From: Chelatococcus sambhunathii
GTDB taxonomy: Bacteria; Pseudomonadota; Alphaproteobacteria; Rhizobiales; Beijerinckiaceae
Assembly (NCBI RefSeq): GCF_001418005.1
Contig: NZ_LIOL01000017.1
Span: 1 to 40,302 of the forward strand
Direction of reading: 5' to 3'
DNA length: 40,302 bases
The notes beneath the pieces were generated by a model. The model was not told the DNA's origin, searched no databases, and worked only from the letters and a program-made list of their open reading frames with translations. This document shows, one piece after another, positions 1 through 40,245 of this stretch. A program made the translations under genes and the position numbers. Positions within the stretch are counted from its first letter, which is position 1. Each line of letters opens with the position of its first letter.

Positions 1-266
1 CCGACCGGTGCAGTCACTCCACCTTGGGCATCTCATGGATGCTCGGGACCGACGACCTGGCCCGGCACTCCCGTTGGTTCCTCCGCAACTGCGGCGGGAT
101 GCTCGACGAGATGCACGGGCACTTCCCGACCTTCTACAATTTTGCGGACGAGCGGAACGAGGTTCACATCCGCTGGCTCAGATGGGCCGGCTTCACCTTC
201 GGCCGCCGCATTCCGCACAACGGCACCCATTTTTGGGAGCACTGGAGAACAAAGGAATGTGTGTAG
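1..266 (+). CDS. gp13-like acetyltransferase-fold virion/assembly protein, 3' part
   Basis: The reading frame is open from the window edge and ends at TAG 264-266. It encodes the C-terminal part of the GNAT-like protein that sits between gp12 and gp14 in T7-like phages; in T7, gp13 is needed for virion assembly. Visible family features are the GISWMLGTDDL stretch, then a helix-rich segment and the NEVHIRWLRWAGFTFGR segment typical of the acetyl-CoA-binding end of the fold. The start codon is outside the window; the matching 5' part lies at 40245-40302. The gp14 start overlaps the last ten bases. A copy of the dispersed palindrome lies at positions 7-23 inside the frame. Family assignment rests on sequence pattern and gene order. 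Confidence 0.75.
   Translation, partial: DRCSHSTLGISWMLGTDDLARHSRWFLRNCGGMLDEMHGHFPTFYNFADERNEVHIRWLRWAGFTFGRRIPHNGTHFWEHWRTKECV
7..23. repeat. Dispersed palindrome copy at the window edge
   Basis: GGTGCAGTCACTCCACC, one arm mismatch, inside the gp13-like frame six bases from the window start. Confidence 0.85.
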
Positions 267-1030
267 CTGCCGCCGCAGCGATCATCTCCACCGGCGCAAG
301 TGTCGCAGGTCAGATCTTCAGCTTTCAGGCGCAGAACAAGGCCGCGTGGGAGCAGCGGGCCTATAACATGAAAGTCGAGGCGCAGCAGGAGAGATACCGC
401 GCCGAGCTGATCCAGTATCAGAACGTGGTCTACCAGCAGGAGGTGGACTACGGGAAGAAAGTCCTCGACTACCAGAAGAGCGAGTTCGCCCGGCAGGAAA
501 ACTTCGTCGCCAAGGCCACGGAGTCCATCCAGCAGAACCTCTTCGCGCAATACGCCACGCTCCTTCAGCGGGCCGTTGAGGAGGGCATGGCGTCCTCCTT
601 CCAGTCCGTCCAGAACCAGAAGTCCGTCATGGCGGCGCAGGCTAAGGGGCGCGTTGCGGCCGACGCCAAGGGCATCGAAGGGTCCAGCATCGAGCAGCTT
701 ATCAATGACGTAGCGCGGGAAGGCGGGGACAACGAGACGATCATCGCGTTGAACCGTAGCGCCACCCAGCGGCAGCTTGCGATTGAGGCCATGGGCCTGA
801 AGGCGAGCGCCGACCAGCAGCTCTACAACCTTCCCATTCAGACGTTCCAGCCCAACGCTCCCCTCAATCCGCCTCAGCCGGTCAGCCCTGTAACCCCTGC
901 GGCCCCCGTAGCCGGCCCCAATCGAGGGGCGATGATCGCCAACGTGATCGGGTCGGCCATTCAAGGGGCGAGCAACTACGCGACGTGGTCGGGGCAGTCG
1001 TTCAAGCAGGCATTCAGCTTCAACCTCTAA
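257..1030 (+). CDS. Internal virion protein B (T7 gp14-like)
   Basis: 257 residues. Gene order (gp13-gp14-gp15-gp16) and sequence character identify it as gp14, a core protein ejected into the outer membrane during infection. The start ATG at 257 follows AAAGGA and overlaps the previous stop. It gives the MCVAAAAAIISTGASVAGQI beginning (a short hydrophobic Ala-rich segment after Met-Cys), a pattern seen in this family. Residues 35-190 are a long, charged, mostly helical coiled region rich in Gln and Ala; the C-terminal 60 residues are Pro/Asn rich. It is somewhat longer than T7 gp14 (196 residues). An in-frame extension upstream to position 8 is rejected because it would overlap the whole gp13 gene. 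Confidence 0.85.
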   Translation: MCVAAAAAIISTGASVAGQIFSFQAQNKAAWEQRAYNMKVEAQQERYRAELIQYQNVVYQQEVDYGKKVLDYQKSEFARQENFVAKATESIQQNLFAQYATLLQRAVEEGMASSFQSVQNQKSVMAAQAKGRVAADAKGIEGSSIEQLINDVAREGGDNETIIALNRSATQRQLAIEAMGLKASADQQLYNLPIQTFQPNAPLNPPQPVSPVTPAAPVAGPNRGAMIANVIGSAIQGASNYATWSGQSFKQAFSFNL

Positions 1031-3485: not shown

Positions 3486-6400
3486 TGGCAACAGAATTGA
3501 CCCCTGAAGAGCTTCAGCAGGCCGAGGCTCTTCGGCAGGGCTTCCTCGAAATGGAGGAGAAGGACCCGTCGTGGATGGAGCGCGTCTCCGCCACGGCAGG
3601 GGCCGTAGCGTCTGACGTTGGCACCGGCCTTAAGGAAGCCGTTCCGCAGGCCGTCAGGGGCGCTCAAGAGGGCCTCAACGCCATGTCTGACGCCACCTTC
3701 AGCGTGGCCGATTGGCTCAACAAGAACGTCATCGACCTCGACAAGCTGGTCCTTGGTCGCGAGGCCCCGAACGAGAACGCCCTGCGCTTCTCCGATGGCG
3801 CTATGCCGGCCGAGCCGGAGTCCGTCACGGGAACCATCGTCAACGACGTGACGCAGTTTCTCGTTGGCATGGGCGTTGCCGGCCGTGCCCTCAAGGCGGT
3901 CGGCGTCACACGTGCAGTGACTGCACCGGGCGCGGTCGGACAGGGCATGCTAAAGGGCGCCATCGCGGATGCGACGGCCTTCGACCCCCACGAAGAGCGC
4001 CTGTCCAATCTGCTTGAGCAGTATCCCCGCCTGTCCAATTCGGTCACGCAGTACCTTGCTGCGGACCCGGAGGACGGCGAGGCGGAGGGGCGCCTCAAGA
4101 ACGCGCTGGAGGGGCTCGTCTTGGGCGGCCTCGTGGAAAGCCTGTTCCACGGCATCCGGGCCATCAAGCTCAAGCGCTCGGGCAACCTCAAGGGCGCCGA
4201 AGAGGCCCTCGACGAGATGGAGCGCAGCGGCGAGGCGGCCGGCGTCAAGGTGGACGAAGCGCCCCTTCGGGATGGCCCCGAGGGCGGCGAACAGCTTGAC
4301 CTCAATCTGGAGGGAGGCGGCCCCCGCCCGGACAGCCCGAGGGAAACCTTCGGGGACCAGCAGGGGGACGTTAAGCCCGGCGATATGGCGGCCGACGTCC
4401 CGCCCAAGAAGCCCACGAAGGACGCCCCGGCGTTCAAGCCCGCGAAGAAGCTCGTGGAGGTGGACGACGCCAAGCTCCGGGAGATTGCGGGAGCGTCGAT
4501 CAGTGAGAAGGCGTGGGGGCAGGGACGGAACATCTCCGGCATCCGCACGGACCTCATGGAGACCGCCGAGGACATCAACGCCACCATGTCCGCCCTTCGC
4601 GTGGTCTATCGCGAGGAGGCCGCCAAGGCCATCGGCGGGAACGCTGACAATGTCCGCTCGTGGAAGAACGTCGAGCGCAACGCGGACTCTCTCGCGGACC
4701 TGATCGGCGACGATCCGCGCCTTCTTCTCCAGCGGATGCAGGCCATCCATAAGGAGACCTTCCACGCGGACGCGGAGCTGAAGCTCTATCGCGACATGCT
4801 GGTGACGGTGAATGACCGTCTCGTGCAGATCGCGGAGGTGGTCGGGGACCCGCTCGGGGGAACCGGGAAGTATGCTTCGCGGGCCGAGGCATACGCGGAC
4901 TTTGCCAAGCACTATGAGCTGATGGCGAACATGCAGCTCATGTACAAGGGCATCCAGACCAACTTCGCCCGCACGATGAACGCCATGAAGCTGACGGCGG
5001 AGGCCCGCAAGGGTGTCCTGCCGGACAACGTGGACGGGCTCTTTGCGGGCGGCGAGAGGGAGATCGTCAAGGCGGCGAAGAAAATCCTCGCCAACGGGGA
5101 GAACGTGAAGGGCAACCTTCAGATCACCCGAGGGGGCTTCGTCAACAAGATGCTCTCGTCGGTCAATGAGTATTGGATCAACTCGATCCTTTCGGGTCCC
5201 AAGACGCACGTCGTCAACATCACCTCGAACGCCATCAACGCGGCCTTCATCCCGACCGAGCGGCTCATCGCGGGAGCCCTGCACTTCGACAGTCCGCAGG
5301 GTCGGGCCGAGTTTATCGAGGGCGCCCTCCAGTTCGCGGGCTATGCGGCTTCCTTCAAGGACGCCGTCCAGCTTGCCTACAAGGCGCTCAAGACAGGGGA
5401 GTCGATCCTCGACCCCGCACGGGGAACCGTCGAGCACGCCCCGGCCATCTCCAATCTCAACTACGGCATCTCCGATCCGGCCCTGTCGATGGCAATCAAC
5501 GGCCTTGGCAACGTGGTCCGCCTGCCGTCCCGCTTCCTCACGGCCGAAGACGAGTTCTTCAAGCAGCTCACCTATCGCTCCGCTATCCGGGCGCAGGCGT
5601 GGCGCGAGGCGGCCACCAACGGCATGTGGCGCGACCCGAAGGCCATGGCGGAACACGTCACGAAGCGCCTTGACGAGGCCGTTGAGGGGAACGGAAACGC
5701 GAAGAATGCGGATGCCCTAGCGCTGGCCCGAGAGACCACCTTTACGCAGGACCTTGCGGCGGCCACGCATAGCGGGGGCCGCACCCTCGGCCAGACGCTC
5801 CAAGGCGCCGCAGCAGCTCATCCCGGCCTGCGCCTCATCATGCCGTTCGTGCGAACCCCGACAAACATCATGCGGCAGGTCTGGAACCACACGCCCGGCC
5901 TCAACCTCCTTCGGAAGCAGTACGCCGATGACATCATGGGCGCGAACGGGTTCCGGGCGAAGGCGCGGGCGCAGGCTCAGATGCTGACCGGCGGGCTCCT
6001 GTGGGGCGCGGCAGTGGCGAACGTCATGGAAGGCAACATCACTGGCGGAGGCCCGGCGGACCCCGACATCCGAAAGGCTCTTGAGGCCACGGGATGGCGT
6101 CCCTATTCGATCCGCACGACGGACGAGGAGGGGAACGTTCACTACACCTCCTACGCCCGGTTCGATCCTTTCGGCATGTTCTTCGGCCTGGCTGCGGACT
6201 ACGCCGAGGCCGCCGGAGCGTGGCCCGAGCAAGACCTTGAGGAACGCGCGACGATGGTCGTCACGGCCCTTGCGAAGAACCTCAACAACAAGTCCTACCT
6301 GTCGGGCCTCGTGAACGCCCTCGGCGCCATGTCGGAGCCGGGCCGGAAGGCAGAGAATTTCTTCAAGGGCATCGCAGGCGGCTTCGTCCCGACCGCGCTA

Positions 6401-7045
6401 CAGCAGGTGGCGGGCGATCCGCATATGCGCGAGGCGCGTTCCGTCGTGGACGCCATGCGCCGGAAGATGCCGGGTTACGCGGAAGACCTCGATCCCCAGC
6501 GGAACATCCTCGGCGAGAAGCAGTATATCCCGCCGGCCCTCGGCCCCGACTGGATCAGCCCTGTCACGCAGACGGTCCACGCTCCGGGCGCCCAGCCGCT
6601 CACCGATGAGTGGAAGCGAACGCCGCAATCTGATGTCTATGACGAGCTTGCGCGGCAGATGATGCTCCACAACTCGGCGATCAAGGTGTCCCCGGACAAG
6701 CTGGATGGCGTTGACCTGACGCAGTACCGGAGCCCCGTCACCGGCTACACCGCCAGTGACCGCTACAGGGAGCTTACGGGAACCGTCGAGATCAACGGGA
6801 AGACCCTGAAGGAGACCCTCGCGGACTTCTTCGCCTCGCCCGCCTACAAGACCGGGCTGTCGGACGGTGACTTCGACCGCAACGGGTCCCGTATCGACCA
6901 GATCAGGGTCATCGTGCAGGCGTTCCGGGAGGCCGCGAAGGCGGAGCTTCGACAGGAAATCCCCCAGCTCCACTACGACCTCATGGAGGCGCAGCGGCAG
7001 GGGGCACTCATCAAGCTTCCGCAGGACCAGCGCAGTTCCCGATAG
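3485..7045 (+). CDS. Internal virion protein D (T7 gp16-like), very large ejected core protein
   Basis: 1186 residues, start ATG in a TAATG overlap with gp15. Size and position match gp16 (1318 residues in T7), the ejected core protein that helps pull DNA into the cell. No SLT/lysozyme domain is visible at the N-terminus; that activity appears to be in gp15 here. Residues about 115-160 contain a Gly/Ala/Val-rich hydrophobic stretch that may insert into membrane. Residues about 275-320 are a Pro/Gly/Asp-rich linker. The middle contains NSILSGPKTHVVNITSNAIN, a pattern seen in other alphaproteobacterial phage core proteins. A dispersed palindrome copy lies inside the gene at 3911-3927. A palindrome and a strong terminator follow directly after the stop. 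Assignment is by context and length more than by a defined domain. Confidence 0.8.
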   Translation: MATELTPEELQQAEALRQGFLEMEEKDPSWMERVSATAGAVASDVGTGLKEAVPQAVRGAQEGLNAMSDATFSVADWLNKNVIDLDKLVLGREAPNENALRFSDGAMPAEPESVTGTIVNDVTQFLVGMGVAGRALKAVGVTRAVTAPGAVGQGMLKGAIADATAFDPHEERLSNLLEQYPRLSNSVTQYLAADPEDGEAEGRLKNALEGLVLGGLVESLFHGIRAIKLKRSGNLKGAEEALDEMERSGEAAGVKVDEAPLRDGPEGGEQLDLNLEGGGPRPDSPRETFGDQQGDVKPGDMAADVPPKKPTKDAPAFKPAKKLVEVDDAKLREIAGASISEKAWGQGRNISGIRTDLMETAEDINATMSALRVVYREEAAKAIGGNADNVRSWKNVERNADSLADLIGDDPRLLLQRMQAIHKETFHADAELKLYRDMLVTVNDRLVQIAEVVGDPLGGTGKYASRAEAYADFAKHYELMANMQLMYKGIQTNFARTMNAMKLTAEARKGVLPDNVDGLFAGGEREIVKAAKKILANGENVKGNLQITRGGFVNKMLSSVNEYWINSILSGPKTHVVNITSNAINAAFIPTERLIAGALHFDSPQGRAEFIEGALQFAGYAASFKDAVQLAYKALKTGESILDPARGTVEHAPAISNLNYGISDPALSMAINGLGNVVRLPSRFLTAEDEFFKQLTYRSAIRAQAWREAATNGMWRDPKAMAEHVTKRLDEAVEGNGNAKNADALALARETTFTQDLAAATHSGGRTLGQTLQGAAAAHPGLRLIMPFVRTPTNIMRQVWNHTPGLNLLRKQYADDIMGANGFRAKARAQAQMLTGGLLWGAAVANVMEGNITGGGPADPDIRKALEATGWRPYSIRTTDEEGNVHYTSYARFDPFGMFFGLAADYAEAAGAWPEQDLEERATMVVTALAKNLNNKSYLSGLVNALGAMSEPGRKAENFFKGIAGGFVPTALQQVAGDPHMREARSVVDAMRRKMPGYAEDLDPQRNILGEKQYIPPALGPDWISPVTQTVHAPGAQPLTDEWKRTPQSDVYDELARQMMLHNSAIKVSPDKLDGVDLTQYRSPVTGYTASDRYRELTGTVEINGKTLKETLADFFASPAYKTGLSDGDFDRNGSRIDQIRVIVQAFREAAKAELRQEIPQLHYDLMEAQRQGALIKLPQDQRSSR
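3911..3927. repeat. Dispersed palindrome copy inside gp16
   Basis: CGTGCAGTGACTGCACC, inner 15 bases perfect; encodes RAVTAP. Confidence 0.9.
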
Positions 7046-7061
7046 GTGCAGTCGCTGCACC
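7045..7061. repeat. Dispersed palindrome copy behind gp16
   Basis: GGTGCAGTCGCTGCACC, perfect arms; starts on the last base of the gp16 stop, eight bases ahead of the terminator. Confidence 0.95.
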
Positions 7062-9258: not shown

Positions 9259-9497
9259 TGGAAGAGAACCAGCTCTACCTCATGCTCGGCCGGATTGACG
9301 GGAAGCTCGACCACGTCATCCAGCGGGCCGACAAGCAGGACAATAGGGCCGACGAAATCGAGCGTGTGCAGTCACTGCACTCTGAGAGGATCACCACCCT
9401 TGAGCGCGACCGGCGATGGGTAATCGCCCTTGCTGCGGCGCTCTCGACCGTCATGGGATGGGCCATCTCAATCCTGAAGGAATACCTCTTCAAGTGA
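9258..9497 (+). CDS. Holin-like small membrane protein (XhlA type), T7 gp17.5 position
   Basis: 79 residues; start ATG overlaps the preceding stop (TAATG) and its own stop overlaps the next GTG start. Residues 1-50 form a charged amphipathic/coiled-coil region. Residues about 53-73 (WVIALAAALSTVMGWAISIL) are a single membrane span close to the C-terminus. This topology matches XhlA-like haemolysin/holin-associated proteins, and the position between fibre and small terminase is where T7 has its holin gp17.5. It would let the amidase encoded at 23390 act. Embedded palindrome copy at 9365-9381 encodes VQSLH. No Rz/Rz1 pair is recognisable nearby. Function is inferred. Confidence 0.6.
   Translation: MEENQLYLMLGRIDGKLDHVIQRADKQDNRADEIERVQSLHSERITTLERDRRWVIALAAALSTVMGWAISILKEYLFK
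9365..9381. repeat. Dispersed palindrome copy inside the holin-like gene
   Basis: TGTGCAGTCACTGCACT, inner 15 bases perfect; encodes VQSLH. Confidence 0.9.
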
Positions 9498-9821: not shown

Positions 9822-11501
9822 ATGAAGCGTTTCAACGATCCTATCAAGGACGACTTCCGAAACTTCCTCTATCTGGTCTGGAAGCACCTCAATCTCCCTG
9901 ACCCGACCGCCGTCCAATACGACATCGCGGACTACCTCCAGCACGGCCCGAAGCGCTGCATCATCGAAGCGTTCCGGGGCGTCGGGAAGTCCTATGTCAC
10001 GTCGGCATTCGTCGTCTGGCTTCTCTACCGCGATCCGCAGCTCAACATCCTCGTGGTGTCCGCTTCCAAGGATCGCGCCGACCAGTTCTCCACCTTCACC
10101 AAGCGGCTGATCGCAGAGATGCCCCTTCTGGCCCATCTACGGGCTCGTCCGGGGCAGCGTGACTCGTCCATTGCGTTCGACGTTGGGCCTGCCCGCAACT
10201 CGCACTCGCCGTCCGTCAAGTCGGTCGGCATCACGGGTCAGCTCGCCGGCTCCCGCGCGGACGTGATCATCGCCGACGACGTGGAGGTTCCGAACAACTC
10301 CATGACCGAGACGCAGCGCCAGCAGCTTGCGATCCGGGTGCAGGAGTTCGACGCAATCCTGAAGCCTCTCGACACGAGCCGGGTCATCTACCTCGGCACT
10401 CCGCAGTGCGAGATGAGCCTCTATAACGAACTTCTCAAGCGCAACTACCAAATCCGCATCTGGCCGGCACGTGTTCCCGACAAGGCGCAGATCGCGGCGT
10501 ATGGGGACCGGCTGTCGCCGTTCGTCTTCGACCTCATCGAGAAGGGATGGAAGGCAGGCGCCCCGACCGACCCCCAACGGTTTGACGAGGACGACCTGTT
10601 TGAGCGCGAGGCGTCGTATGGCCGTTCTGGCTTCGCGCTTCAGTTCATGCTCGACACGCGGCTGTCGGACGCTGAGCGCTACCCGCTCCGGGTCTCCGAC
10701 CTCATCGTCATGTCAATCAATCCCGAGCTGGCTCCCGTGCGCCTCGCTTGGGCTGCCTCACCGGAGGCCCGGCTAGAGCTGCACAACGTGGCCTTCAACG
10801 GGGACCACTTCTACCGGCCCATGTGGGTGGACAAGGAGTGGACACCTTACACCGGCTCCGTCATGGCGATTGATCCTTCCGGGCGGGGCGGGGATGAGAC
10901 CGGCTATGCGATTGTGAAGTTCCTCAACGGGTTCCTTTACGTGACCGCAGCGGGCGGCCTTCCGGGCGGCTACGACGACGACACGTTGCTCAAGCTGGCT
11001 ACGCTCGCGAAGGACCATCAGGTCAACCACATCATCGTCGAGGCTAACTTCGGTGACGGCATGTACACCAAGCTCCTCCAGCCCGTGGTGCAGCGACTGC
11101 ACCCGTGCAGGATCGAGGAGGTGAAGCACTCGTCGCAGAAGGAGAAGCGTATCATCGATACGCTTGAGCCCGTCCTCATGCGGCATAAGCTCGTCATAGA
11201 CCCGAAGGTGATCGAGCAGGACGCCAAGTCCGTTCACATCTACCCGGCCGATAGGGCGCAGCAGTACATGCTCATGTACCAGCTCACCCGCCTGACGAAG
11301 GACCGAGGGTCCCTTGCCAAGGACGACCGGATCGATGCCCTCGCCATGGCGGTGGCCTACTGGACCGAGAGCATGGCGCGAGACGCCGACAGGGCGGCGG
11401 CCGACCTGCGAGAGAAGAAGCTGCAAGAGGAATTGGACAAGTTCATCGACGGAGCCATGGGACGCTCCGGCCGTCCCCGCGATCTTTGGGTTCGGGTGTA
11501 A
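9822..11501 (+). CDS. terL: Terminase large subunit (T7 gp19-like)
   Basis: 559 residues. Packaging motor ATPase with C-terminal nuclease. Walker A is FRGVGKSY at residues 51-58; Walker B is ADVIIADD near 146-153. The nuclease/RNase H-fold part starts about residue 345 with MAIDPSGRGGDETGYAIV, with later acidic residues around IIVEANFGDG and the DDRIDALAMA motif near the end. Length is close to T7 gp19 (586). Palindrome copy 11087-11103 lies inside the coding sequence, and three more follow directly after the stop. The start ATG at 9822 has only a weak ribosome site. Confidence 0.97.
   Translation: MKRFNDPIKDDFRNFLYLVWKHLNLPDPTAVQYDIADYLQHGPKRCIIEAFRGVGKSYVTSAFVVWLLYRDPQLNILVVSASKDRADQFSTFTKRLIAEMPLLAHLRARPGQRDSSIAFDVGPARNSHSPSVKSVGITGQLAGSRADVIIADDVEVPNNSMTETQRQQLAIRVQEFDAILKPLDTSRVIYLGTPQCEMSLYNELLKRNYQIRIWPARVPDKAQIAAYGDRLSPFVFDLIEKGWKAGAPTDPQRFDEDDLFEREASYGRSGFALQFMLDTRLSDAERYPLRVSDLIVMSINPELAPVRLAWAASPEARLELHNVAFNGDHFYRPMWVDKEWTPYTGSVMAIDPSGRGGDETGYAIVKFLNGFLYVTAAGGLPGGYDDDTLLKLATLAKDHQVNHIIVEANFGDGMYTKLLQPVVQRLHPCRIEEVKHSSQKEKRIIDTLEPVLMRHKLVIDPKVIEQDAKSVHIYPADRAQQYMLMYQLTRLTKDRGSLAKDDRIDALAMAVAYWTESMARDADRAAADLREKKLQEELDKFIDGAMGRSGRPRDLWVRV
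11087..11103. repeat. Dispersed palindrome copy inside terL
   Basis: GGTGCAGCGACTGCACC, perfect arms; encodes VQRLHP. Confidence 0.9.
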
Positions 11502-11503
11502 TT

Positions 11504-11580
11504 GGTGCAGTGACTGCACCGGGGGCGATGGGTGCAGTACCGCTGCACCTGTCTAGTTTCCGGTGCAGTGATACTGCACT
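11504..11580. repeat. Cluster of three dispersed palindromes behind terL
   Basis: Three copies lie in 77 bases: 11504-11520 (GGTGCAGTGACTGCACC), 11531-11549 (same arms, five-base centre TACCG) and 11562-11580 (five-base centre TGATA, last base T). They begin three bases after the terL stop and end three bases before the phage promoter at 11584. This is the only tight cluster in the window. Confidence 0.95.
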
Positions 11581-11583
11581 TTA

Positions 11584-11601
11584 ATTATCCCCCACTTATA
11601 G
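11584..11601 (+). promoter_or_regulatory. Phage RNA polymerase promoter, right-end position
   Basis: ATTATCCCCCACTTATAG differs at one base from the consensus of the other six. The expected transcript begins GGGGGAG and can fold GGGGG...CCCCC at once. It lies after terL like T7 phiOR, which has roles in replication and packaging; that function here is inference. Confidence 0.85.
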
Positions 11602-11658
11602 GGGGAGCCAATACCCCCGCCCCCGTAAAGTTTACATTAGAGTGTTAAAGAGGGGCGC

Positions 11659-11711: not shown

Positions 11712-11764
11712 CATTGTCAAGGGAGTCCCTATATGGCACCTAGAGGGCTCGCTAGGGGCTTTCC

Positions 11765-12049: not shown

Positions 12050-12083
12050 TCCAGCTCCCTTAAGGAAATCCGAAGGGCAGCCC

Positions 12084-12805: not shown

Positions 12806-12824
12806 GGTGCAGCGTCACTGCACC
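12806..12824. repeat. Dispersed palindrome copy (five-base centre)
   Basis: GGTGCAG-CGTCA-CTGCACC with perfect 7-base arms, in the early leader. Confidence 0.9.
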
Positions 12825-12875: not shown

Positions 12876-12892
12876 AGTGCAGTGACTGCACC
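12876..12892. repeat. Dispersed palindrome copy
   Basis: AGTGCAGTGACTGCACC, perfect inner 15 bases, 70 bases from the previous copy. Confidence 0.9.
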
Positions 12893-14101: not shown

Positions 14102-14106
14102 TTGTG

Positions 14107-14794: not shown

Positions 14795-14811
14795 GGTGAA
14801 GTCACTGCACC
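14795..14811. repeat. Dispersed palindrome copy abutting a start codon
   Basis: GGTGAAGTCACTGCACC, one arm mismatch. Its last base is immediately followed by ATG 14812, in the place where a ribosome site would be. Confidence 0.85.
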
Positions 14812-15669: not shown

Positions 15670-16002
15670 ATGGACCAGAAAGCCACGCGGAAGGCGATAC
15701 TCCTGATTGAGGAGTTCCGCAAACTCGATCCCAAGATGCCCATTCAGATGGCCCATATCCTCCTTCTCGTGGCCCTGAAGCCGGGCGTCAACATGCGGCA
15801 GCTCATGGCTGATACCGACCTGAGCAAGTCCAGCGTCACCCGACACGTTGAAGTCCTTGGAGACGGCGGCAAGACCGGCCCTGGGCTCGGACTCGTTGTG
15901 TCGAGAGATTCGCTTGAGGACCGCCGCTTCAAAGAGGTCCGGCTAACCCCGGCAGGCGAGCGGGTCATCCGCTCCATCATCCACTACACAGGAGGTGAAT
16001 AA
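15670..16002 (+). CDS. MarR-type winged-helix regulator
   Basis: 110 residues, ATG after GGGAAGGA. The recognition part is the helix-turn-helix MRQLMADTDLSKSSVTRHVE (about residues 42-61), followed by a beta wing (GLGLVVSRDSLEDRRFKEVR) and the C-terminal LTPAGERVIRSI helix, all typical of MarR proteins. MarR dimers bind 15-20 bp palindromes. It is shorter than usual (about 140) because the N-terminal dimer helix is reduced. Its stop overlaps the integrase start (TAATG), so both are co-translated. The linkage suggests a lysogeny regulator. It is a candidate reader of the dispersed palindrome, untested. Confidence 0.85.
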   Translation: MDQKATRKAILLIEEFRKLDPKMPIQMAHILLLVALKPGVNMRQLMADTDLSKSSVTRHVEVLGDGGKTGPGLGLVVSRDSLEDRRFKEVRLTPAGERVIRSIIHYTGGE

Positions 16003-17250: not shown

Positions 17251-17339
17251 GCGGGCGTGGTGAAACTGGTAAACACAGCGGACTTAAAATTCGCCGCCTC
17301 TTCAATGGCTTACGGGTTCGACCCCCGTCGCCCGCACCA
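17251..17339 (+). tRNA. trnL: tRNA-Leu (anticodon UAA) with encoded CCA
   Basis: Acceptor stem GCGGGCG (17251-17257) pairs with CGCCCGC (17329-17335); discriminator A and encoded CCA follow. Anticodon stem GCGGA/TTCGC holds the loop CTTAAAA, giving anticodon TAA. A long class II variable arm lies between it and the T-arm (ACGGG TTCGACC CCCGT). Every arm is complete, so the gene could be functional. Lying directly behind int, it most probably contains the phage attachment site; integration at tRNA-Leu(UAA) is known for other T7-like temperate phages. Whether the full gene is phage-borne or comes from a prophage junction cannot be told here. Confidence 0.95.
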
Positions 17340-20225: not shown

Positions 20226-20242
20226 GGTGCAGTCACTCCGCA
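20226..20242. repeat. Half palindrome joined to the 43-base repeat
   Basis: GGTGCAGTCACTCCGCA: the left arm is intact, but the right arm is lost exactly where the 43-base repeat (20238-20280) begins, as if that element had inserted or recombined here. Confidence 0.6.
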
Positions 20243-20312: not shown

Positions 20313-20357
20313 CTGGAGCGGATGGGCCGCTCCTTTCCCTTCTTAGGAGCACTCATC

Positions 20358-21900: not shown

Positions 21901-21917
21901 TGTGCAGCGACTGCACC
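21901..21917. repeat. Dispersed palindrome copy
   Basis: TGTGCAGCGACTGCACC, inner 15 bases perfect except the CGA centre, 20 bases ahead of ATG 21937. Confidence 0.9.
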
Positions 21918-24001: not shown

Positions 24002-24017
24002 GTGCAGTCACTGCACC
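24001..24017. repeat. Dispersed palindrome copy over the amidase stop
   Basis: AGTGCAGTCACTGCACC; starts on the last base of the TGA stop codon and lies 10 bases ahead of the promoter at 24028. Confidence 0.9.
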
Positions 24018-24999: not shown

Positions 25000-25178
25000 T
25001 GCCGGCAGTCCTCGTCCTCGCGTGGCTTGTCATTGTCCTAACAGCGCTCGTCGGATGGGTGATGAACATCATCGCCCTTGTCGGGATGCTTGACGGTGCA
25101 GTCACGGCACTCTTCATCGCCCGCATCGTCGGCGTCTTCATTGCCCCGCTCGGGGCCGTGCTCGGGCTCTTCGTCTAG
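24999..25178 (+). CDS. Two-span small membrane protein
   Basis: 59 residues, start ATG overlapping the previous stop (TGATG). Two hydrophobic helices are seen: residues 3-25 (VLVLAWLVIVLTALVGWVMN) and about 38-58 (LFIARIVGVFIAPLGAVLGL). The GWVMNIIALV ... FIAPLGAVLG pattern occurs in small membrane proteins of many phages, which are often annotated only as membrane proteins. Palindrome-like sequence 25095-25111 lies inside. A strong terminator follows 34 bases after the stop. Function unknown. Confidence 0.7.
   Translation: MPAVLVLAWLVIVLTALVGWVMNIIALVGMLDGAVTALFIARIVGVFIAPLGAVLGLFV
25095..25111. repeat. Degenerate palindrome copy
   Basis: GGTGCAGTCACGGCACT; one internal arm mismatch, inside the membrane-protein gene. 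Confidence 0.65.
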
Positions 25179-25280: not shown

Positions 25281-25730
25281 ATGTCCGCTCTTGCAGCGCT
25301 CCTCAACCTGTCCCCGCAGGCCCGCAAAATCCACGACCACATGGTCAAGGCGGGCAGCATCTCGGCCCGCGAAGCGATGGCCGATTACGGCATCACCTCG
25401 GCAACCCTCGCCCGGCGCATCTGCGACATCGAGGAGGCCGGCTTCGTGGTCAAGCGGGAGCAGCGCGTGCACCCGATCCACAAGCGCAAGTACACCCGCT
25501 ATTCCATCGACAGCGAGGCGGTCCCTCCTGCGCCCGCTCCTGAGCCGTTCAAGGTCGGCGACCGGGTCCGCGTCAGGGAAGGCTTCCCGGACGAGGAAGA
25601 CGTGGGCCGCATGGGCAAAGTCATCCGAGTCCGCCCGGCCCACTACACGTTCCCTTTCGAGGTTCTCCTCGACGGAGACAGCGAGCCGTGGCCCGTGAGG
25701 GCGACTGAGATCGAGCGGGTGGAGGACTGA
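25281..25730 (+). CDS. Winged-helix (HTH_39-like) plus SH3-like regulatory protein
   Basis: 149 residues, ATG after GGAAAGGAAAG. Residues about 8-65 (LSPQARKIHDHMVKAGSISA, REAMADYGITSATLARRICD, IEEAGFVVKREQ) form the winged-helix DNA-binding type often seen in phage proteins. After a Pro-rich linker (80-88), residues 90-145 (FKVGDRVRVREGFPDEEDVG then GKVIRVRPAHYTF) are an SH3/KOW-like barrel similar to those in the gene at 24127. The stop is followed at once by a palindrome copy. A DNA-binding regulatory role is likely; target unknown. It is another candidate reader of the dispersed palindrome. Confidence 0.7.
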   Translation: MSALAALLNLSPQARKIHDHMVKAGSISAREAMADYGITSATLARRICDIEEAGFVVKREQRVHPIHKRKYTRYSIDSEAVPPAPAPEPFKVGDRVRVREGFPDEEDVGRMGKVIRVRPAHYTFPFEVLLDGDSEPWPVRATEIERVED

Positions 25731-25747
25731 AGTGCAGTCACTTCACC
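25731..25747. repeat. Dispersed palindrome copy containing a start codon
   Basis: AGTGCAGTCACTTCACC, one arm mismatch; GTG 25732 within it is the likely start of the next gene. Confidence 0.8.
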
Positions 25748-26182: not shown

Positions 26183-27039
26183 AGGCTCCCGTCATCGCAG
26201 TTGGTGTTGTCGCCGGCCTGTTCGGCATCTCGACCCTCTTCGGCTCATGGTACACGGTCGGGGAGGGTGAACGTGGTGTGCTCACCCGTAATGGGGCCGT
26301 GATCGGCACCGCCAATCCGGGCCTCGGGTTCAAGCTCCCGTTCATCGACGGTGTCGAGAAGGTCTCCGTCCAGACCCGCTACGCCGGCTACAAGAAGGTT
26401 CAAGGCTACAGCCGCGACCAGCAGCCGGCAGACATGACCCTGTCGGTCAACTATCGCCTGTCACCCGACAAGGTTCAGGAGATCTACACGCGCTTCGGCG
26501 GTGAGGAGGGCCTCGTCGCCCGCCTCATCACCCCACGTGTGCTGGCCGAGACCAAGACGGTCTTCGGGCGCTTCACTGCCGTCATGGCTGTGCAGGAGCG
26601 GGACCGCCTCAATAGCGAGGTGCGGGCTGCCATCGCGGATGCGGCCGGCGAGTTCGTCACCATCGAGGGTGTCCAGATCGAGAACATCGACTTCTCGGAT
26701 GCTTACGAGGCGTCCGTCGAGCAGCGGATGCTCGCGGAGGTGGAGGTACAGAAGCTGCGCCAGAACGCCGAGCGCGAAAAGGTGCAGGCCGGTATCGTCG
26801 AGACGCAGGCCGCAGCCAAGGCAAAGGCCGTCCGCGCGATGGCTGAGGCGGAAGCCGAGGCAGTCAAGCTGAAGGGCGCCGCCGAGGCGACCGCCATCCG
26901 GGCTCGGGGCGAGGCGCTACGGGATAACCCGTCGCTCGTCGGGCTCGTGCAGGCGGAGCGGTGGGACGGCAAGTTGCCCGCCACCATGGTTCCCGGCTCG
27001 GCCCTGCCAATGCTCTCGCTCGGTAAGCAGGTGCAGTGA
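26179..27039 (+). CDS. SPFH/prohibitin-like (band 7, HflC-like) membrane protein
   Basis: 286 residues from GTG 26179. Residues 4-24 are an N-terminal membrane anchor (VIAVGVVAGLFGISTLFGSW). Residues about 28-175 are the SPFH domain (VGEGERGVLTRNGAVIGTAN, PGLGFKLPFIDGVEKVSVQT, YRLSPDKVQEIYTRFGGEEG). Residues 175-245 are a long Ala/Glu/Lys coiled coil (VQKLRQNAEREKVQAGIVET), and the end is polar. Cellular HflK/HflC proteins of this type form cages that restrain the FtsH protease and influence lambda lysogeny. A phage copy could protect phage proteins from FtsH or shape membrane sites; this is inference. It looks complete. Confidence 0.9.
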   Translation: MKAPVIAVGVVAGLFGISTLFGSWYTVGEGERGVLTRNGAVIGTANPGLGFKLPFIDGVEKVSVQTRYAGYKKVQGYSRDQQPADMTLSVNYRLSPDKVQEIYTRFGGEEGLVARLITPRVLAETKTVFGRFTAVMAVQERDRLNSEVRAAIADAAGEFVTIEGVQIENIDFSDAYEASVEQRMLAEVEVQKLRQNAEREKVQAGIVETQAAAKAKAVRAMAEAEAEAVKLKGAAEATAIRARGEALRDNPSLVGLVQAERWDGKLPATMVPGSALPMLSLGKQVQ

Positions 27040-27046
27040 CTCCACC
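27030..27046. repeat. Dispersed palindrome copy abutting a start codon
   Basis: GGTGCAGTGACTCCACC; one arm mismatch. It covers the SPFH stop (27037-27039) and ends one base before ATG 27047. Confidence 0.85.
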
Positions 27047-29130: not shown

Positions 29131-29147
29131 GGTGTAGTCACTGCACC
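29131..29147. repeat. Dispersed palindrome copy
   Basis: GGTGTAGTCACTGCACC, one arm mismatch (C to T), between the lipoprotein and DNA polymerase genes. Confidence 0.85.
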
Positions 29148-29172: not shown

Positions 29173-31023
29173 TTGGCACGCTTTATCTTCGACATCGAAA
29201 CCGATGGCCTCCTAGACGAGCTAACGCGCGTCCACTGTCTGGTCCTAAAGGACATCGACACGGGGGAGGTCTTTTCATACCGGAACGACGGCGACCCCGA
29301 GAACCTCCGCAGGCTGGAGGAGGGGGTCCGCAAGTTGGCCGGGGCCGAGCTGATCGCCGGCCACAACATCATCAACTTCGACATCCCCGCGCTCATCAAG
29401 GTCTACCCTTGGTTCCGGCCGCGTGGCGTCGTCCGCGACACCATCGTCATGGCCCGTCTCATCTGGCCGGGCGATGTCATCAAGGACATTGACACCAAGC
29501 ACGTCAAAGCGGGAACCCTGCCGGGCAAGCTATGGGGCGCCTATTCGCTTGAAGCGTTCGGCTACCGGCTCGGGAACTACAAGGGCGACTACAAAGGCCC
29601 TTGGGATGCGTGGTCCGAGACCATGCAGGAATACTGCGAGCAGGACGTGTCGGTCACGTTCTCGCTCTGGCAGCGGCTCACCGCCAAGGAATGGGCCGAA
29701 GAGTCCATTGAGCTTGAGCACGACGTTGCATGGATCATCTCCCGGCAGGAGCGGTACGGGTTCCTCTTCGATGAGAAACGCGCGGCCCGCTATTACGCCG
29801 ACTTGGTCCAGCGAAAGGTCGAGCTGGAGGCCGCCCTTCAGGAAGCCTTCCCGCCTTGGGAGGTCGAGACCGTCTTCATCCCGAAGGCGAACAACCGTCC
29901 GCGCGGATACGTCAAGGGCGTTCCCTTCACGAAGCGCAAGACGGTCCACTTCAAGCCGACGAGCCGAGACCATATCGCGCAGCGGCTGATCGCCAAGCAC
30001 GGATGGGATCCGCAGGAGTTCGGCAAAGACGGCAAACCGACCGTAGACGAAGAGGTCCTGTCCTCGCTCCCTTACGAGGAGGCGCGGGTCCTTTCCGAAT
30101 ATCTCATGGTCGAGAAGCGGATGGGCCAGCTCGCCACCGGCAAGGAGGCGTGGCTCAAGCGCGTCGGTTCTGACGGGCGCATCCACGGCAGGGTGACGAC
30201 GAACGGCGCGGTGACGGGTCGCATGACCCACTCCAAACCGAACATGGCCCAAGTCCCCGGCCTCACCGACAAGAAGACCGGCAAGCCCATGCCATACGGC
30301 AGGGACAGCCGGGAGTGCTTCATCGTTCCGCCGGGCAAGACCCTCGTGGGTTGCGACGCGGACGCTCTGGAGCTGCGCTGTCTGGCCGGCTACATGGCCC
30401 GCTACGACGGCGGTGCGTACATCGCGACCGTCCTTGAGGGTAAGAAAGAGCTTGGGACGGACATGCACACCGTCAACGCGAAGGCGTTGGGGTGCTCGCG
30501 TGATGCCGCAAAAGTCTGGTTCTACGCCTTCATCTACGGGGCGGGCGACTTCAAGCTCGGGACCATCCTGAATGCTCCTTCGGGGCAGGAGATGGCATGG
30601 GGCAAGCGCTCCCGCGCCCGGTTCATGAAGAACCTGCCGGCCCTCGGGAAGATCATCGAGAAGGTCCAAGAGAAGGTTGCCAAGAAGGGCTATCTCAAGG
30701 GCCTCGACGGTCGCCAGTTGCGGGTGCGCTCGGCGCACTCTGCGTTCAACACGTTGCTTCAGTCTGCCGGCGCGGTGCTGATGAAGAAGGCTCTTGTCAT
30801 CCTTGATCGAGACCTTCAAGCCGCAGGGTACATCCCCGGCATTCACTATGAGTTCGTCGCCAATGTTCACGACGAGTGGCAGATCGAGGCCGACGACGAC
30901 ATAGCACATGACATCGGAGAACGTGCAGTCACTGCAATTGTACGGGCCGGCGAGCACTTCAACTTCGGTTGTCCCCTTAACGGAAACGCAGGGTACGGCC
31001 GCAATTGGGCCGAGACTCACTGA
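29173..31023 (+). CDS. Family A DNA polymerase (T7 gp5-like)
   Basis: 616 residues from TTG 29173. The 3'-5' exonuclease domain has Asp7 and Glu9 (FDIETDG), Asp70 (NFDIPAL) and YCEQDVSVT. Polymerase motifs: GCDADALELRCLAGYM (motif A), RDAAKVWFYAFIYGAGDFKL (O-helix) and VHDEWQIE (motif C). It is about 90 residues shorter than T7 gp5 (704); the stretch between the exonuclease domain and FKPTSRDHI is compressed, where T7 carries the thioredoxin-binding loop, so host thioredoxin is probably not used. A palindrome copy (30922-30938) is inside the gene. It copies phage DNA with the primase-helicase. Confidence 0.97.
   Translation: MARFIFDIETDGLLDELTRVHCLVLKDIDTGEVFSYRNDGDPENLRRLEEGVRKLAGAELIAGHNIINFDIPALIKVYPWFRPRGVVRDTIVMARLIWPGDVIKDIDTKHVKAGTLPGKLWGAYSLEAFGYRLGNYKGDYKGPWDAWSETMQEYCEQDVSVTFSLWQRLTAKEWAEESIELEHDVAWIISRQERYGFLFDEKRAARYYADLVQRKVELEAALQEAFPPWEVETVFIPKANNRPRGYVKGVPFTKRKTVHFKPTSRDHIAQRLIAKHGWDPQEFGKDGKPTVDEEVLSSLPYEEARVLSEYLMVEKRMGQLATGKEAWLKRVGSDGRIHGRVTTNGAVTGRMTHSKPNMAQVPGLTDKKTGKPMPYGRDSRECFIVPPGKTLVGCDADALELRCLAGYMARYDGGAYIATVLEGKKELGTDMHTVNAKALGCSRDAAKVWFYAFIYGAGDFKLGTILNAPSGQEMAWGKRSRARFMKNLPALGKIIEKVQEKVAKKGYLKGLDGRQLRVRSAHSAFNTLLQSAGAVLMKKALVILDRDLQAAGYIPGIHYEFVANVHDEWQIEADDDIAHDIGERAVTAIVRAGEHFNFGCPLNGNAGYGRNWAETH
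30922..30938. repeat. Dispersed palindrome copy inside the DNA polymerase gene
   Basis: CGTGCAGTCACTGCAAT; outer right end differs. It encodes RAVTAI near the C-terminus of the polymerase. Confidence 0.75.
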
Positions 31024-32171: not shown

Positions 32172-32515
32172 AGGAATGCACTTATTGCGGCAAGCGCGTT
32201 AACCGCGAATGCGCAGACACGCGAGAGGCGCTCATGTGCTCGCCGGTTAACCGGAAGATGTACAGAGGTGCAGCGACTGCACCGAAGACGACTTCTGACG
32301 GCGGATCGACGAGCTACTACAAGCTACCCGAAGGGGCGAAGGACCTTCAGGATGTGATCGAGGCGAAGAACATGAACTTCGCCATCGGGAACATCTTCAA
32401 GGCGTGCTACCGGCTCGGGGAGAAGGACGGCACGTCCGCCGACTATGACCTTAACAAGATCATCTTCTTCGCCCAGCGCGAGAAGGCTCGGCGAACCAAG
32501 TGTGCGTCGTCCTGA
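32159..32515 (+). CDS. gp1.7-like nucleotide kinase / DUF3310 protein with zinc-finger remnant
   Basis: 118 residues from TTG 32159. The C-terminal ~60 residues (YYKLPEGAKDLQDVIEAKNM, NFAIGNIFKACYRLGEKDGT, DLNKIIFFAQREKARR) match DUF3310, the family that includes the T7 gp1.7 nucleotide kinase. The N-terminal 30 residues (CTYCGKRVNRECADTREALM) hold Cys residues of a small zinc-finger type. A palindrome copy (32267-32283) lies in the linker between them. Precise start uncertain. Confidence 0.75.
   Translation: MDALKECTYCGKRVNRECADTREALMCSPVNRKMYRGAATAPKTTSDGGSTSYYKLPEGAKDLQDVIEAKNMNFAIGNIFKACYRLGEKDGTSADYDLNKIIFFAQREKARRTKCASS
32267..32283. repeat. Dispersed palindrome copy inside the DUF3310 gene
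   Basis: GGTGCAGCGACTGCACC, perfect arms; encodes the GAATAP linker, the same peptide as the copy in int at 16758. Confidence 0.9.
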
Positions 32516-34852: not shown

Positions 34853-34997
34853 GGCCGATCCGAACGAAACCCCGCAGGCTCCAGCCGAGACCCCTTCGCC
34901 GAGTGCAGTCACTGCACCGGAGGAAGCTCCGCCCGCGTCCGTAACCCGAGACCCGTCCGTCGAGAAGATCGGCGGCTTCACTCGTACAACCTTCTGA
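34839..34997 (+). CDS. Small Pro-rich protein between portal and scaffold, 52 residues
   Basis: ATG 34839 overlaps the portal end; stop TGA 34995-34997. The product is MARRKADPNETPQAPAETPS, PSAVTAPEEAPPASVTRDPS, VEKIGGFTRTTF: disordered, Pro/Ala/Glu-rich, with a short conserved-looking tail. The palindrome 34902-34918 encodes SAVTAP. Position between portal and scaffold suggests a structural accessory; nothing more can be said. Confidence 0.6.
   Translation: MARRKADPNETPQAPAETPSPSAVTAPEEAPPASVTRDPSVEKIGGFTRTTF
34902..34918. repeat. Dispersed palindrome copy
   Basis: AGTGCAGTCACTGCACC, inner 15 bases perfect, in the small gene after the portal. Confidence 0.9.
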
Positions 34998-35951: not shown

Positions 35952-35968
35952 GGTGCAGCCACTGCACC
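35952..35968. repeat. Dispersed palindrome copy
   Basis: GGTGCAGCCACTGCACC, perfect arms, eight bases after the 35801 gene. Confidence 0.9.
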
Positions 35969-37273: not shown

Positions 37274-37290
37274 GGTGCAGTGACTGCACC
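37274..37290. repeat. Dispersed palindrome copy
   Basis: GGTGCAGTGACTGCACC, perfect arms, between the main terminator and the gp11 gene. Confidence 0.95.
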
Positions 37291-37903: not shown

Positions 37904-40245
37904 TGGCGGTCATCTCGGGCTCCGTCCCGAACCTCATCAATGGCGTCAGCCAGCAGCCCTTCGCGCTCCGGCTGGCGTCTCAGGCCGAGGCCCAGGTCAA
38001 CGGCTACTCGTCTGTTGTGGAAGGGCTGACCAAGCGGCCCCCGACCAAGCACGTTGCGCGGATAATGGGGGCGCTCCCCGCCGCCTCCTTCGTCCACATC
38101 ATCAATCGCGACGTGACCGAGAGGTACGTTGTGGTCGCAGTGGATGGAGACCTCAAGGTCTTCGACCTCGCCGGCAACGAAAAGGTCGTCAACTTCCCGG
38201 CTGGAAAGGGCTACCTGTCCAGCGCGAGGTGTAATTTCTCGGCCGTGACGGTCGCCGATTACACGTTCTTTCTCAACCGTGACATGGCCGTCGCGATGAC
38301 GGAGGAGATCAAGCCGGCTCGTGGGAACGAGGCCATCCTCTACTTCCGTCAGGGAACCTACGCGGCCACCTACACGGTGACGATAGACGCGCTCGATCCG
38401 TTCACCTTCACGACCTCGACAACCGATCCGGCGGAGATCCAAACCAACGCCATCGCCACTCGGATGGCCGGTCTCATCAACGCCAACGAGGACTTTCAGG
38501 CTGATGTGTATTCCTCCACGCTGCATGTGCGGCGGAAGGACGGCGGCCCGTTTGAGATCAAGAGCGGCGACAGCATTGGCGATACGGCCATCGTCTGCGT
38601 GACCAAGCAGACGCAGTCTTATGTGGACCTGCCGGGCAGGGCCGTACACGGCTACCAGTGCGAGATCACCGGAGCGCCGGGGAACGTCTTCGACAATTAC
38701 TGGCTGGAGTACGACGCAAGCGGCACGGGCGGGAACGACGGTGTCTGGAGGGAAATCGCGGCCCCCGGCCGTAAGATCGCGTTTGACGGGGGCACCATGC
38801 CCCACACTCTGGTTCGCAACGGGGACGGCACGTTCACCTTCGCGCCTGCCGAATGGGCCAAGTGCGGGGCCGGGTCGGATGCTACGACTCCCAAGCCCTC
38901 GTTCGTCGGGAAGACGATCAACGACATCTTCTTCTATCGGAACCGGCTCGGGTTCATCGCGGACGAGGCCGTCATCTTTTCCCGGTCGTCGGCGCACTTC
39001 AATTTCTGGCGCGAGACTGCCACGCAAGTCCTCGATACGGACCCGATCGATGTCGCCACGTCGCACGTCAAGGTGTCCATCCTGCGCCATGCGGTGCCCT
39101 TCAATGAGAGCTTGCTTCTGTTCTCCGATCAGACGCAGTTCATGCTCGGGGCTTCGGAGGCTCTGACGCCCGGAACGGTCTCTCTGGATCAGGTCACGGA
39201 GTTTGAAACCTCACCGCTGGCTAAGCCGGTGGGGGCAGGCTCGTTCGTCTACTTCTGCACCCTGAAGGGCGATTTCACTGGCGTTCGCGAGTATTATCTC
39301 GACGGCGTCTCTAAGACGAACAACGCGAATGATGTGACCAATCACGTCCCGCGCTATGTGGCTGCCGGCGTCTTCAAGCTCGCCGCCTCGACGAACGAAG
39401 ACATTCTGATCGCGCTCTCTTCCGAGAAGAGGGACACAATCTTTGTCTACAAGTTCTACTACTCAGGTCAGGAGAAGGTGCAGTCGAGCTGGTCAGTCTG
39501 GACGCTCGACGCCGGGTGCGAAATCCTCAACGCGGAGTTTATCGAGAACACCTTGTGGCTGGTCATTAAACGGTCAGACGGCGTGTATCTCGAACGCATG
39601 GACATCGAGGCGGGCAAGGCTGATGCAGGACTCCCCTACGTTGTTCACCTCGACCGTCGTCTGACCGAGACGCAGGTGCAGTCGCTGCACTTCGACGGCT
39701 CGACAACGTCTTTCGATCTTCCCTACACCGAGAGCGAGGATGGGAGCATCGTTCTGGTCTCGCGGCCGGGCGACGCGACCTATCGGCCGGGTGTCGTGGT
39801 GCCGTTCCAAAGGAGTGGCTCGACGCTCACCGTCAAGGGAAACCTCACGCACTTCTACGTCGGCGTCCGCTACGCGCTGCGGTACACCTTCTCGCCCCTT
39901 CTGGTCCGGCTTAACGCGGCTGGAGGCGGGCAGATCGCCAACACAGAGGGGCGCATCCAGCTTCGCCGGGCGCTCTTGAACTACGCCGACACCGGCTATT
40001 TCAGAGTTCACGTGACGCCGTTCCGCCGGCCCACATTCCGGTATCCATTCACCGGGCGCATCGTCGGCTCGGGTCGGAACCTTATCGGCGAGCCCACGCT
40101 GGAGACCGGGTCATTCCGGTTCCCCATCATGGCGAACAACATGGGCGTGGAGATCGTCATCGTGAACGACACGCATCTCCCGAGCCGCCTCCTCAATCTC
40201 GATTGGGAGGCCCTCTACACTGTCCGAACGCAGAGAATGAACTAG
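37903..40245 (+). CDS. Tail tubular protein B / nozzle (T7 gp12-like)
   Basis: 780 residues, near T7's 794. The start (MAVISGSVPNLINGVSQQPF, ALRLASQAEAQVNGYSSVVE, GLTKRPPTKHVARI) is a hallmark of gp12. Later family stretches include NDIFFYRNRLGFIADEAVIF and the FSDQTQFMLG segment. Six copies make the tail nozzle. Palindrome 39675-39691 is inside and encodes VQSLHFD. The stop overlaps the next GTG. Confidence 0.96.
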   Translation: MAVISGSVPNLINGVSQQPFALRLASQAEAQVNGYSSVVEGLTKRPPTKHVARIMGALPAASFVHIINRDVTERYVVVAVDGDLKVFDLAGNEKVVNFPAGKGYLSSARCNFSAVTVADYTFFLNRDMAVAMTEEIKPARGNEAILYFRQGTYAATYTVTIDALDPFTFTTSTTDPAEIQTNAIATRMAGLINANEDFQADVYSSTLHVRRKDGGPFEIKSGDSIGDTAIVCVTKQTQSYVDLPGRAVHGYQCEITGAPGNVFDNYWLEYDASGTGGNDGVWREIAAPGRKIAFDGGTMPHTLVRNGDGTFTFAPAEWAKCGAGSDATTPKPSFVGKTINDIFFYRNRLGFIADEAVIFSRSSAHFNFWRETATQVLDTDPIDVATSHVKVSILRHAVPFNESLLLFSDQTQFMLGASEALTPGTVSLDQVTEFETSPLAKPVGAGSFVYFCTLKGDFTGVREYYLDGVSKTNNANDVTNHVPRYVAAGVFKLAASTNEDILIALSSEKRDTIFVYKFYYSGQEKVQSSWSVWTLDAGCEILNAEFIENTLWLVIKRSDGVYLERMDIEAGKADAGLPYVVHLDRRLTETQVQSLHFDGSTTSFDLPYTESEDGSIVLVSRPGDATYRPGVVVPFQRSGSTLTVKGNLTHFYVGVRYALRYTFSPLLVRLNAAGGGQIANTEGRIQLRRALLNYADTGYFRVHVTPFRRPTFRYPFTGRIVGSGRNLIGEPTLETGSFRFPIMANNMGVEIVIVNDTHLPSRLLNLDWEALYTVRTQRMN
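39675..39691. repeat. Dispersed palindrome copy inside gp12
   Basis: GGTGCAGTCGCTGCACT, inner 15 bases perfect with centre TCG. Confidence 0.85.

Follow-up and report, generated by a model that had tools for sequence, protein, structure and literature searches.

Dispersed, lineage-specific palindromes in a temperate-type T7-like phage contig of Chelatococcus sambhunathii as putative repressor-binding sites

A T7-like phage contig and its repeated palindrome

The window analysed here is the whole 40,302-base contig NZ_LIOL01000017.1 of the 4.37-Mb, 35-contig assembly of Chelatococcus sambhunathii, and the element under study is a 17-bp palindrome, GGTGCAG-N3-CTGCACC, which recurs along it. Judged by gene content, with a T7-type RNA polymerase and an integrase nearby, the contig is a temperate-type T7-like (Autographiviridae) phage. 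Contig and phage coincide exactly, the assembly keeps them apart from the chromosome, and both contig ends fall in late genes. Gene calls were taken from our own list of open reading frames (ORFs), and profile libraries were scanned with 31 of the 43 listed ORFs. These scans identified T7-like genes for the RNA polymerase (17642..20188, + strand; PF00940, E = 4e-108), single-stranded DNA binding protein, endonuclease, amidase, primase/helicase, DNA polymerase, exonuclease, portal, scaffold, capsid, tail and internal virion proteins. Beyond these, the phage carries a tyrosine integrase (16002..17168, + strand; PF00589, E = 1e-23), a MarR-like protein of 110 amino acids (aa), a tRNA-Leu and a pRha-like protein. 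The best of the listed matches to named phages were Pasto, LUZ100 and Lo5R7ANS, with RNA polymerase identities of 41.6–43.8%.

A search of the window with GGTGCAGNNNCTGCACC at up to three mismatches returned 32 matches (mean of 100 dinucleotide shuffles 2.97, largest 7). A preliminary description of the contig had listed 27 copies and considered them too many to be fortuitous, and both points are borne out: 24 of the 27 positions match GGTGCAG-N3-CTGCACC with at most three mismatches, and the other three (11531, 11562 and 12806) have identical arms around a 5-bp spacer. Eight extra matches (2480, 3320, 20666, 20690, 25457, 25998, 26589 and 26745), each with two or three mismatches, were taken as chance. 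The statement that most copies keep perfect 7-base arms was too strong, as this is true of 7 of the 24; the inner 6-bp arms (GTGCAG/CTGCAC) are perfect in 15 of the 24 and have at most one mismatch in 23. The central bases TCA and TGA are both found, and the 17-bp sites, being symmetrical, have no orientation. Copies are spaced on average 1526 bp apart (coefficient of variation, CV, 0.61), and the centres of 13 of the 27 fall in non-coding DNA, which by our ORF list makes up 11.4% of the window (binomial p = 2.3e-6).

The palindrome is phage-specific. All 15 copies of its exact form GTGCAGYSRCTGCAC in the whole assembly lie on the phage contig, and no copy of the exact form was found in three genomes of the same genus. 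With up to one mismatch and any centre, the 4.37-Mb assembly contains 76 matches, 23 of them on the phage contig, compared with 58 for a reversed control pattern. Since the host is not enriched and every exact copy is on the phage contig, the palindrome is not a host-wide repeat.

Seven sequences resembling phage RNA polymerase promoters (ATTAACCCCCACTTATA[G/C]), identified by consensus match only, start at 11584 (11584..11601, + strand), 17601, 20296, 21121, 21698, 24028 and 32711. The palindrome had been described as unlinked to this promoter motif, which is mostly right, except that a copy lies within ∼75 bp at three of the seven. The tRNA-Leu(taa) gene (17251..17339, + strand) follows the integrase; the best match to its region elsewhere in the host assembly is 74%, and no clear attachment site was seen there.

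Conserved positions and lineage-specific words

A search of viral contigs with the RNA polymerase yielded 51 loci, the window's own included. Among the near relatives, G001 (42,550 bases with overlapping ends; RNA polymerase 71% identical), contains 28 copies of the window motif at up to one mismatch, G002 (70%) contains nine, and G006, a 15-kb fragment that was found by the motif and has a terminase 66% identical, contains seven. G003 (63%) has no copy of the window motif at this threshold. When the window sites were mapped onto G001 through homologous genes, 18 of the 27 fell within 100 bp of a G001 copy, and for 13 of these the distance was at most 11 bp. These 18 correspond to 17 distinct G001 copies. 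In 2000 rotations the mean was 3.8; 12 rotations scored at least 14 (the highest 18), and every one of these was a shift of less than 100 bp. The two comparisons suggested in the preliminary description, with the host chromosome and with relatives, therefore leave the repeat standing, since the motif is not enriched in the host and many of the same places keep copies in relatives.

The offsets given below are distances from the mapped position of a window site to the nearest G001 copy, and no strand is assigned to the copies. Among the closely matched sites, the copy at 7..23 lies at the start of the gp14-like ORF 8–1030 (offset 0 bp), and the copy at 7045..7061, with perfect arms, at the stop of the gp16-like ORF (3 bp). 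A cluster of one 3-bp-spacer and two 5-bp-spacer sites is common to both genomes: a copy with perfect arms after the terminase stop (11504..11520, −3 bp) is followed by the spacer variants at 11531..11549 (11 bp) and 11562..11580 (6 bp), the latter just upstream of a promoter-like sequence and with a terminator-like hairpin score. Further along, a weaker copy with three mismatches (20226..20242) begins 38 nt after the RNA polymerase stop (0 bp), and copies are found at the endolysin stop, upstream of a promoter-like sequence (24001..24017, −1 bp), before the DNA polymerase (29131..29147, 3 bp), after the portal gene (34902..34918, 9 bp) and, with perfect arms, before the tail tube gene (37274..37290, −2 bp). 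Looser matches were obtained for the copy in the small ORF 9234–9497 (9365..9381, 50 bp), the 5-bp-spacer variant upstream of the first early gene (12806..12824, −90 bp), the copy at 21901..21917 (−79 bp, to a one-mismatch copy) and the copy with perfect arms after the exonuclease gene (32267..32283, −51 bp). The site at 25095..25111 is 73 bp from a G001 copy already paired with that at 24001, and it probably has no true counterpart.

Seven sites within coding sequence were compared between the two genomes, of which three are well conserved: the copy with perfect arms inside the integrase gene (16758..16774, offset −1 bp, 14/17 bp identical), the three-mismatch copy inside the DNA polymerase gene (30922..30938, 17/17) and the copy inside the gp12-like gene (39675..39691, 16/17). 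Equally or more conserved windows make up 18%, 2% and 5% of these genes, respectively. The other four are not conserved. Nine of the 27 sites have no close counterpart in G001. They comprise the copies inside the gp16-like ORF (3911..3927), the terminase large subunit gene (11087..11103, perfect arms), the integrase gene (16176..16192) and the RNA polymerase gene (18224..18240, weaker, three mismatches), as well as one upstream of the first early gene (12876..12892, nearest G001 copy 160 bp away), one abutting the ATG of ORF 14812–15282 (14795..14811, 214 bp away), two at stop/start junctions (25731..25747 and 27030..27046) and one with perfect arms before the capsid gene (35952..35968). A single pairwise alignment places the copy at 3911 in 18 nt that are inserted, in frame, with respect to G001, as though insertion had created the site.

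More distant temperate T7-like phages do not have the window's word but have words of their own, such as GTCTAG-N3-CTAGAC, GGTGCAG-N4-CTGCACC, TATCCACTAGTGGATA and TAGTCAC-N6-GTGACTA. These emerged when 38 genomes or fragments (several of the records are fragments) were searched de novo for palindromes that recur, with mirror repeats as the control, and then scanned with matrices. At least three sites were found in 16 of the 38, in six classes. Each matrix derives from sites of the phages themselves, so that the counts in these phages partly reflect how it was made; RHEph01, G016, G021 and G022 did not contribute to theirs. Outside the window's own group, phages contain 3–20 sites per genome: 12 above the matrix threshold in G003 (word CCGTCTAG-N3-CTAGACGG), 20 and 14 in G005 and G011 (GGTGCAG-N4-CTGCACC), 10 in Pasto (TAGTCACT-N4-AGTGACTA), 3–10 each in LUZ100, G014, G022, G021, G018, G016 and RHEph01 (TATCCACTAGTGGATA), and 13 in G012 (GTTCCCA-N4-TGGGAAC), the least certain class. 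The sites diverge by lineage, in that each matrix finds at least three sites solely in its own group, the exception being the G012 matrix, with three sites in G023. T7 has no site in these scans, and six further loci from named genomes gave no additional clear set of a new kind. The palindrome score is clearly above the mirror control in the window, G001, G002, G003, G005, Pasto and G018, exceeds it by a narrower margin in G011 (26.8 versus 18.9) and LUZ100 (14.5 versus 10.1), is barely above it in G006, G012 and RHEph01, and is not above it in many others. Earlier de novo scans, one of which first showed the G003 word, were set aside because base composition and codon phase dominated them in whole or in part, and the repeated GATTAGGTTGCACCTACAC of G004 was dropped as a likely phage promoter.

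Although the words differ, their places are often shared. In 11 genomes, we measured how far the nearest site of each genome's own word lies from gene landmarks, using permissive mismatch limits (giving 32 sites each in the window and G001). The RNA polymerase stop is followed by a site within 46 bp in 10 of the 11 phages, and the capsid gene is followed by one within 105 bp in nine of them. LUZ100, G014 and G022 are close kin and not independent here; with one genome per motif class, the RNA polymerase stop is followed by a site within 50 bp in five of six. Over the first eight of 12 tabulated junctions, a list made after the window and G001 positions were known, 42 of the 87 genome–junction pairs have a site within 110 bp (1000 rotations: mean 7.2, maximum 18). 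Imperfect TATCCAC-type sites were also seen by eye after the RNA polymerase stop in G036, G033 and G015. The word has changed between lineages while the places have stayed.

Two other repeats were noticed. A second, rarer palindrome, GTYCC-N6-GGRAC, which the G012 word resembles, has seven copies in the window (14115, 16193, 19338, 20192, 21873, 28910 and 28966) and 11 in G001 (4051, 5484, 10371, 38590, 39766 and others) at this exact spacer, whereas no other spacer between 0 and 12 gives more than one copy in the window or two in G001; several of the copies lie just after stop codons. An exact-motif scan of viral contigs returned at least 120 stretches, and among the matches listed 77 of 120 contain paired copies 75–111 bp apart. 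These were rejected as relatives, as nearly all lie inside a different repeat array (e.g. L012:8578–8685), possibly a mobile-element end.

Promoter overlap and the candidate binder

The promoters of LUZ100 have been mapped by ONT-cappable-seq (PMC10134795), which allows its nine sites to be placed relative to transcription. Sites 377 and 578, each three mismatches from the 16-bp word, lie inside the boxes of host promoters P1 and P2. By our own reading of the hexamers, which are 17 bp apart, they are positioned between TTGACA and TAAGAT and extend 2 bp into TAAGAT. Site 6690 ends 2 bp before the phi2 box, and the other six are 1.5–3.2 kb from any mapped promoter.

The protein that we consider the likely binder of the palindromes is the putative MarR-like winged-helix protein of 110 aa encoded at 15670..16002 (+ strand; phrog_9665, E = 6e-20), whose stop overlaps the integrase start. 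Its predicted structure (pLDDT 89.4, pTM 0.80) has the winged-helix order of elements, its top Foldseek matches in the PDB are MarR-family structures (E = 8.5e-5), and its profile matches HosA (E = 6.9e-6), while the Pfam MarR_2 match is below the family's own cut-off. The model indicates that the fold is a MarR-type winged helix. MarR-family dimers bind palindromes of ∼16–20 bp, a range into which the 17-bp site fits. Inspection by eye showed a MarR-like ORF immediately before the integrase in 25 of 29 integrase-matched genomes; in G001 two such proteins are found in tandem there (40861–41175 and 41527–41859).

The protein of the window resembles those of G001 and G011, which share the half-site, matching that of G011 (RNA polymerase 48% identical) at 74 bits, and it has no match in G003 (63% identical), which has another word, even though G003 is nearer to the window than G011 in nine of the ten proteins matched in both, the exception being the single-stranded DNA binding protein. 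This contrast rests on G003 and is no more than suggestive of the MarR-like protein as the binder. The predicted recognition helix begins with residue 53, which by eye is K in the four genomes that combine the GTGCAG half-site with a readable helix (window, G001, G011 and G005), Q in the TATCCAC group, R in G003 and S in G012; K is likewise found in Pasto, and Q in phages for which no word was detected. Three exploratory sub-tests of the helix were chosen after the whole-protein covariation result described below: the first five residues correlate with the motif (rho 0.53, p = 0.004, with no control for relatedness), compared with rho 0.27 (p = 0.13) for the whole recognition helix and 0.10 (p = 0.28) for the rest of it.

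Stoperator-like silencing and its alternatives

We consider it moderately probable that a dimeric repressor encoded by the phage, most likely the MarR-like protein, binds the copies, and that they serve as operators and stoperator-like roadblocks. In the dormant phage, a repressor dimer would sit on 25–30 palindromes. A few of these would occlude early promoters, an overlap seen solely in LUZ100 and its close relatives. The majority, located within genes and where genes meet, would act as roadblocks to stray host or phage RNA polymerase, so that together they would silence the whole prophage in a stoperator-like manner. The binder, its dimerisation, the block to elongation and lysogenic silencing are what we infer here. 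The comparison with stoperators had already been drawn in the preliminary description, and it remains the best-supported reading in that the sites are phage-specific, conserved in position, lineage-specific in word and, in LUZ100, partly inside early promoters and mostly away from promoters. It fits less well in that palindromes are unlike the asymmetric 13–14-bp sites of mycobacteriophages, and its elongation block and binder are the inferred parts. The packaging, segregation and nucleoid-like roles offered beside it are less supported, although an architectural role may remain.

Several observations weigh against a MarR-like repressor acting on dispersed sites. No clear dispersed set was detected in 22 of the 38 genomes or fragments, 12 of which have an integrase and, by eye, a MarR-like gene. 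A MarR-family site beside the protein's own gene is common, but here no copy occurs in the 859 bp before the MarR-like gene (the nearest upstream copy ends at 14811 and the gene starts at 15670), and no consensus sigma-70 promoter overlapping a site was found in 11400–17700, the stretch of the window that was scanned. The MarR-like protein of the window is also matched in phages with other words (G012, 67 bits; LUZ100, 59 bits) and in YIMV22061, which has no detected word (64 bits), and G011 is also nearer to the window than G003 in its single-stranded DNA binding protein. The G005 homologue (minus strand, near 34494–34321) matches only over its last 58 residues, which may reflect an assembly error or a broken gene, and it was left out of the covariation analysis, a Mantel-type partial rank correlation over 11 genomes. 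In that analysis the MarR-like protein was not singled out: its correlation with the motif given the RNA polymerase is 0.16 (p = 0.24), that of the RNA polymerase with the motif given the MarR-like protein is 0.51 (p = 0.005), and with integrase, DNA polymerase, capsid or terminase as the control the MarR-like protein gives p = 0.16–0.24. Covariation of the whole protein with the motif is inseparable from relatedness.

Among the alternatives, the one that survives best accepts the same sites and the same repressor but has the dispersed copies bridge or compact the prophage, or titrate the repressor, with only the promoter copies regulating. The distance of six of the nine LUZ100 sites from mapped promoters and the spacing in the window (CV 0.61) speak for it, but pure compaction or a pure sink would require neither the preference for gene junctions (13 of 27 copies non-coding) nor the retention of specific junctions across lineages, and we regard it as unlikely.

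It is less probable again that another phage regulator binds the sites. One candidate is the small protein at 25281..25730 (+ strand), which has relatives in other T7-like phages: it is matched in eight of nine compared relatives, the 15-kb fragment G006 being the one without a match, and its match in LUZ100 (8743–9063, 46 bits) overlaps gp18, annotated as a 'putative DNA-binding protein'. Against it, the G003 relative, with a different word, is as close to it as that of G001, with the same word (105 bits each). The pRha-like protein (20322..21125, + strand; PF09669, E = 3e-28), which the preliminary description had named as a candidate, is an unlikely binder, with no match in the nine relatives compared, three of which carry the motif.

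That the repeats are instead hairpins in transcripts, serving as terminators, processing sites or stabilisers, seems to us very improbable. Perfect arms could pair as a 7–8-bp hairpin, several copies follow stop codons, the copy at 11562–11580 scores as terminator-like, and the second palindrome, found near stops, could be such an element. However, of the changed arm bases none is compensatory in the window (0 of 8; one G-U and seven broken) or in G001 (0 of 5; one G-U and four broken), and by eye a T-run follows few copies. Uncompensated arm changes favour DNA sites over RNA hairpins, and the two LUZ100 copies between the −35 and −10 boxes precede the start of transcription, so that they cannot work as hairpins in RNA. 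Compensatory changes do occur elsewhere (0–4 per genome, not above the 3–62 broken), which counts somewhat against this argument. Action of the palindromes at the DNA level is well supported. Least probable of all is that the phage is an episome and uses the palindromes for packaging or, as a centromere, for segregation. In favour of this, the contig comprises the phage and nothing else, is not joined to the chromosome in the assembly and ends in late genes, the ends of G001 overlap, and dispersed centromeres are known from phage N15, but no ParA/ParB-like match was found among the 31 of 43 ORFs scanned, two LUZ100 copies sit in early promoters, and to our knowledge T7-type packaging needs no such sites.

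For the repressor reading that we prefer, the closest known parallel is Cluster A mycobacteriophages such as L5 and Bxb1, which have 20–30 dispersed repressor sites, some in promoters and most not promoter-associated, with a consensus that differs between relatives (PMC6550527). The 27 dispersed sites of the window and 28 of G001 are similar in this respect. Cluster A stoperators are 13–14 bp long, lack dyad symmetry and are oriented with transcription (PMC6550527), whereas the sites here are 16–20-bp palindromes without orientation, in T7-like phages with a MarR-like protein adjoining. By analogy, the palindromes of these T7-like phages appear to work like mycobacteriophage stoperators but are not members of that system, because they are symmetrical.

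MarR-based control of lysogeny has been proposed for LUZ100 and further temperate T7-like phages, with hypothesised binding sites on either side of the promoter that precedes the RNA polymerase (PMC10134795); the LUZ100 paper credits this to its reference 14, which we take to be Boeckman et al. 2022. The window agrees with this model in having the MarR-like gene directly upstream of the integrase; the model, as presented in the LUZ100 paper, differs in being a local switch at the RNA polymerase promoter, and the strings 'palindrom' and 'operator' do not occur in the main text of that paper (PMC10134795). MarR-like regulators have similarly been hypothesised to bind palindromes in an H. pylori prophage; those palindromes are AT-rich and near promoters, and the excerpted text describes no genome-wide lineage-specific set (PMC11321410). 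In titles and the openings of abstracts, we found no report of dispersed palindromes in T7-like phages, although priority for sites in Pasto may belong to Boeckman et al. 2022.

These observations address how temperate T7-like phages keep a self-amplifying RNA polymerase silent, for which they offer a concrete and testable answer. T7-like phages were for a long time regarded as strictly lytic. Dispersed, lineage-specific sites would tie the control of early promoters to silencing of the whole genome. We tentatively suggest that temperate T7-like phages silence their prophages and exclude their kin through palindromic stoperators that change together with the repressor and so define immunity groups. 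The same sites could also halt the entry of a superinfecting phage, because T7-type DNA is drawn into the cell by transcription; we know of no stoperator system with such a role. Immunity groups would then be predictable from sequence and, if the mechanism holds, these phages would have a stoperator-like control in which the sites are symmetrical and the repressor is of another kind.

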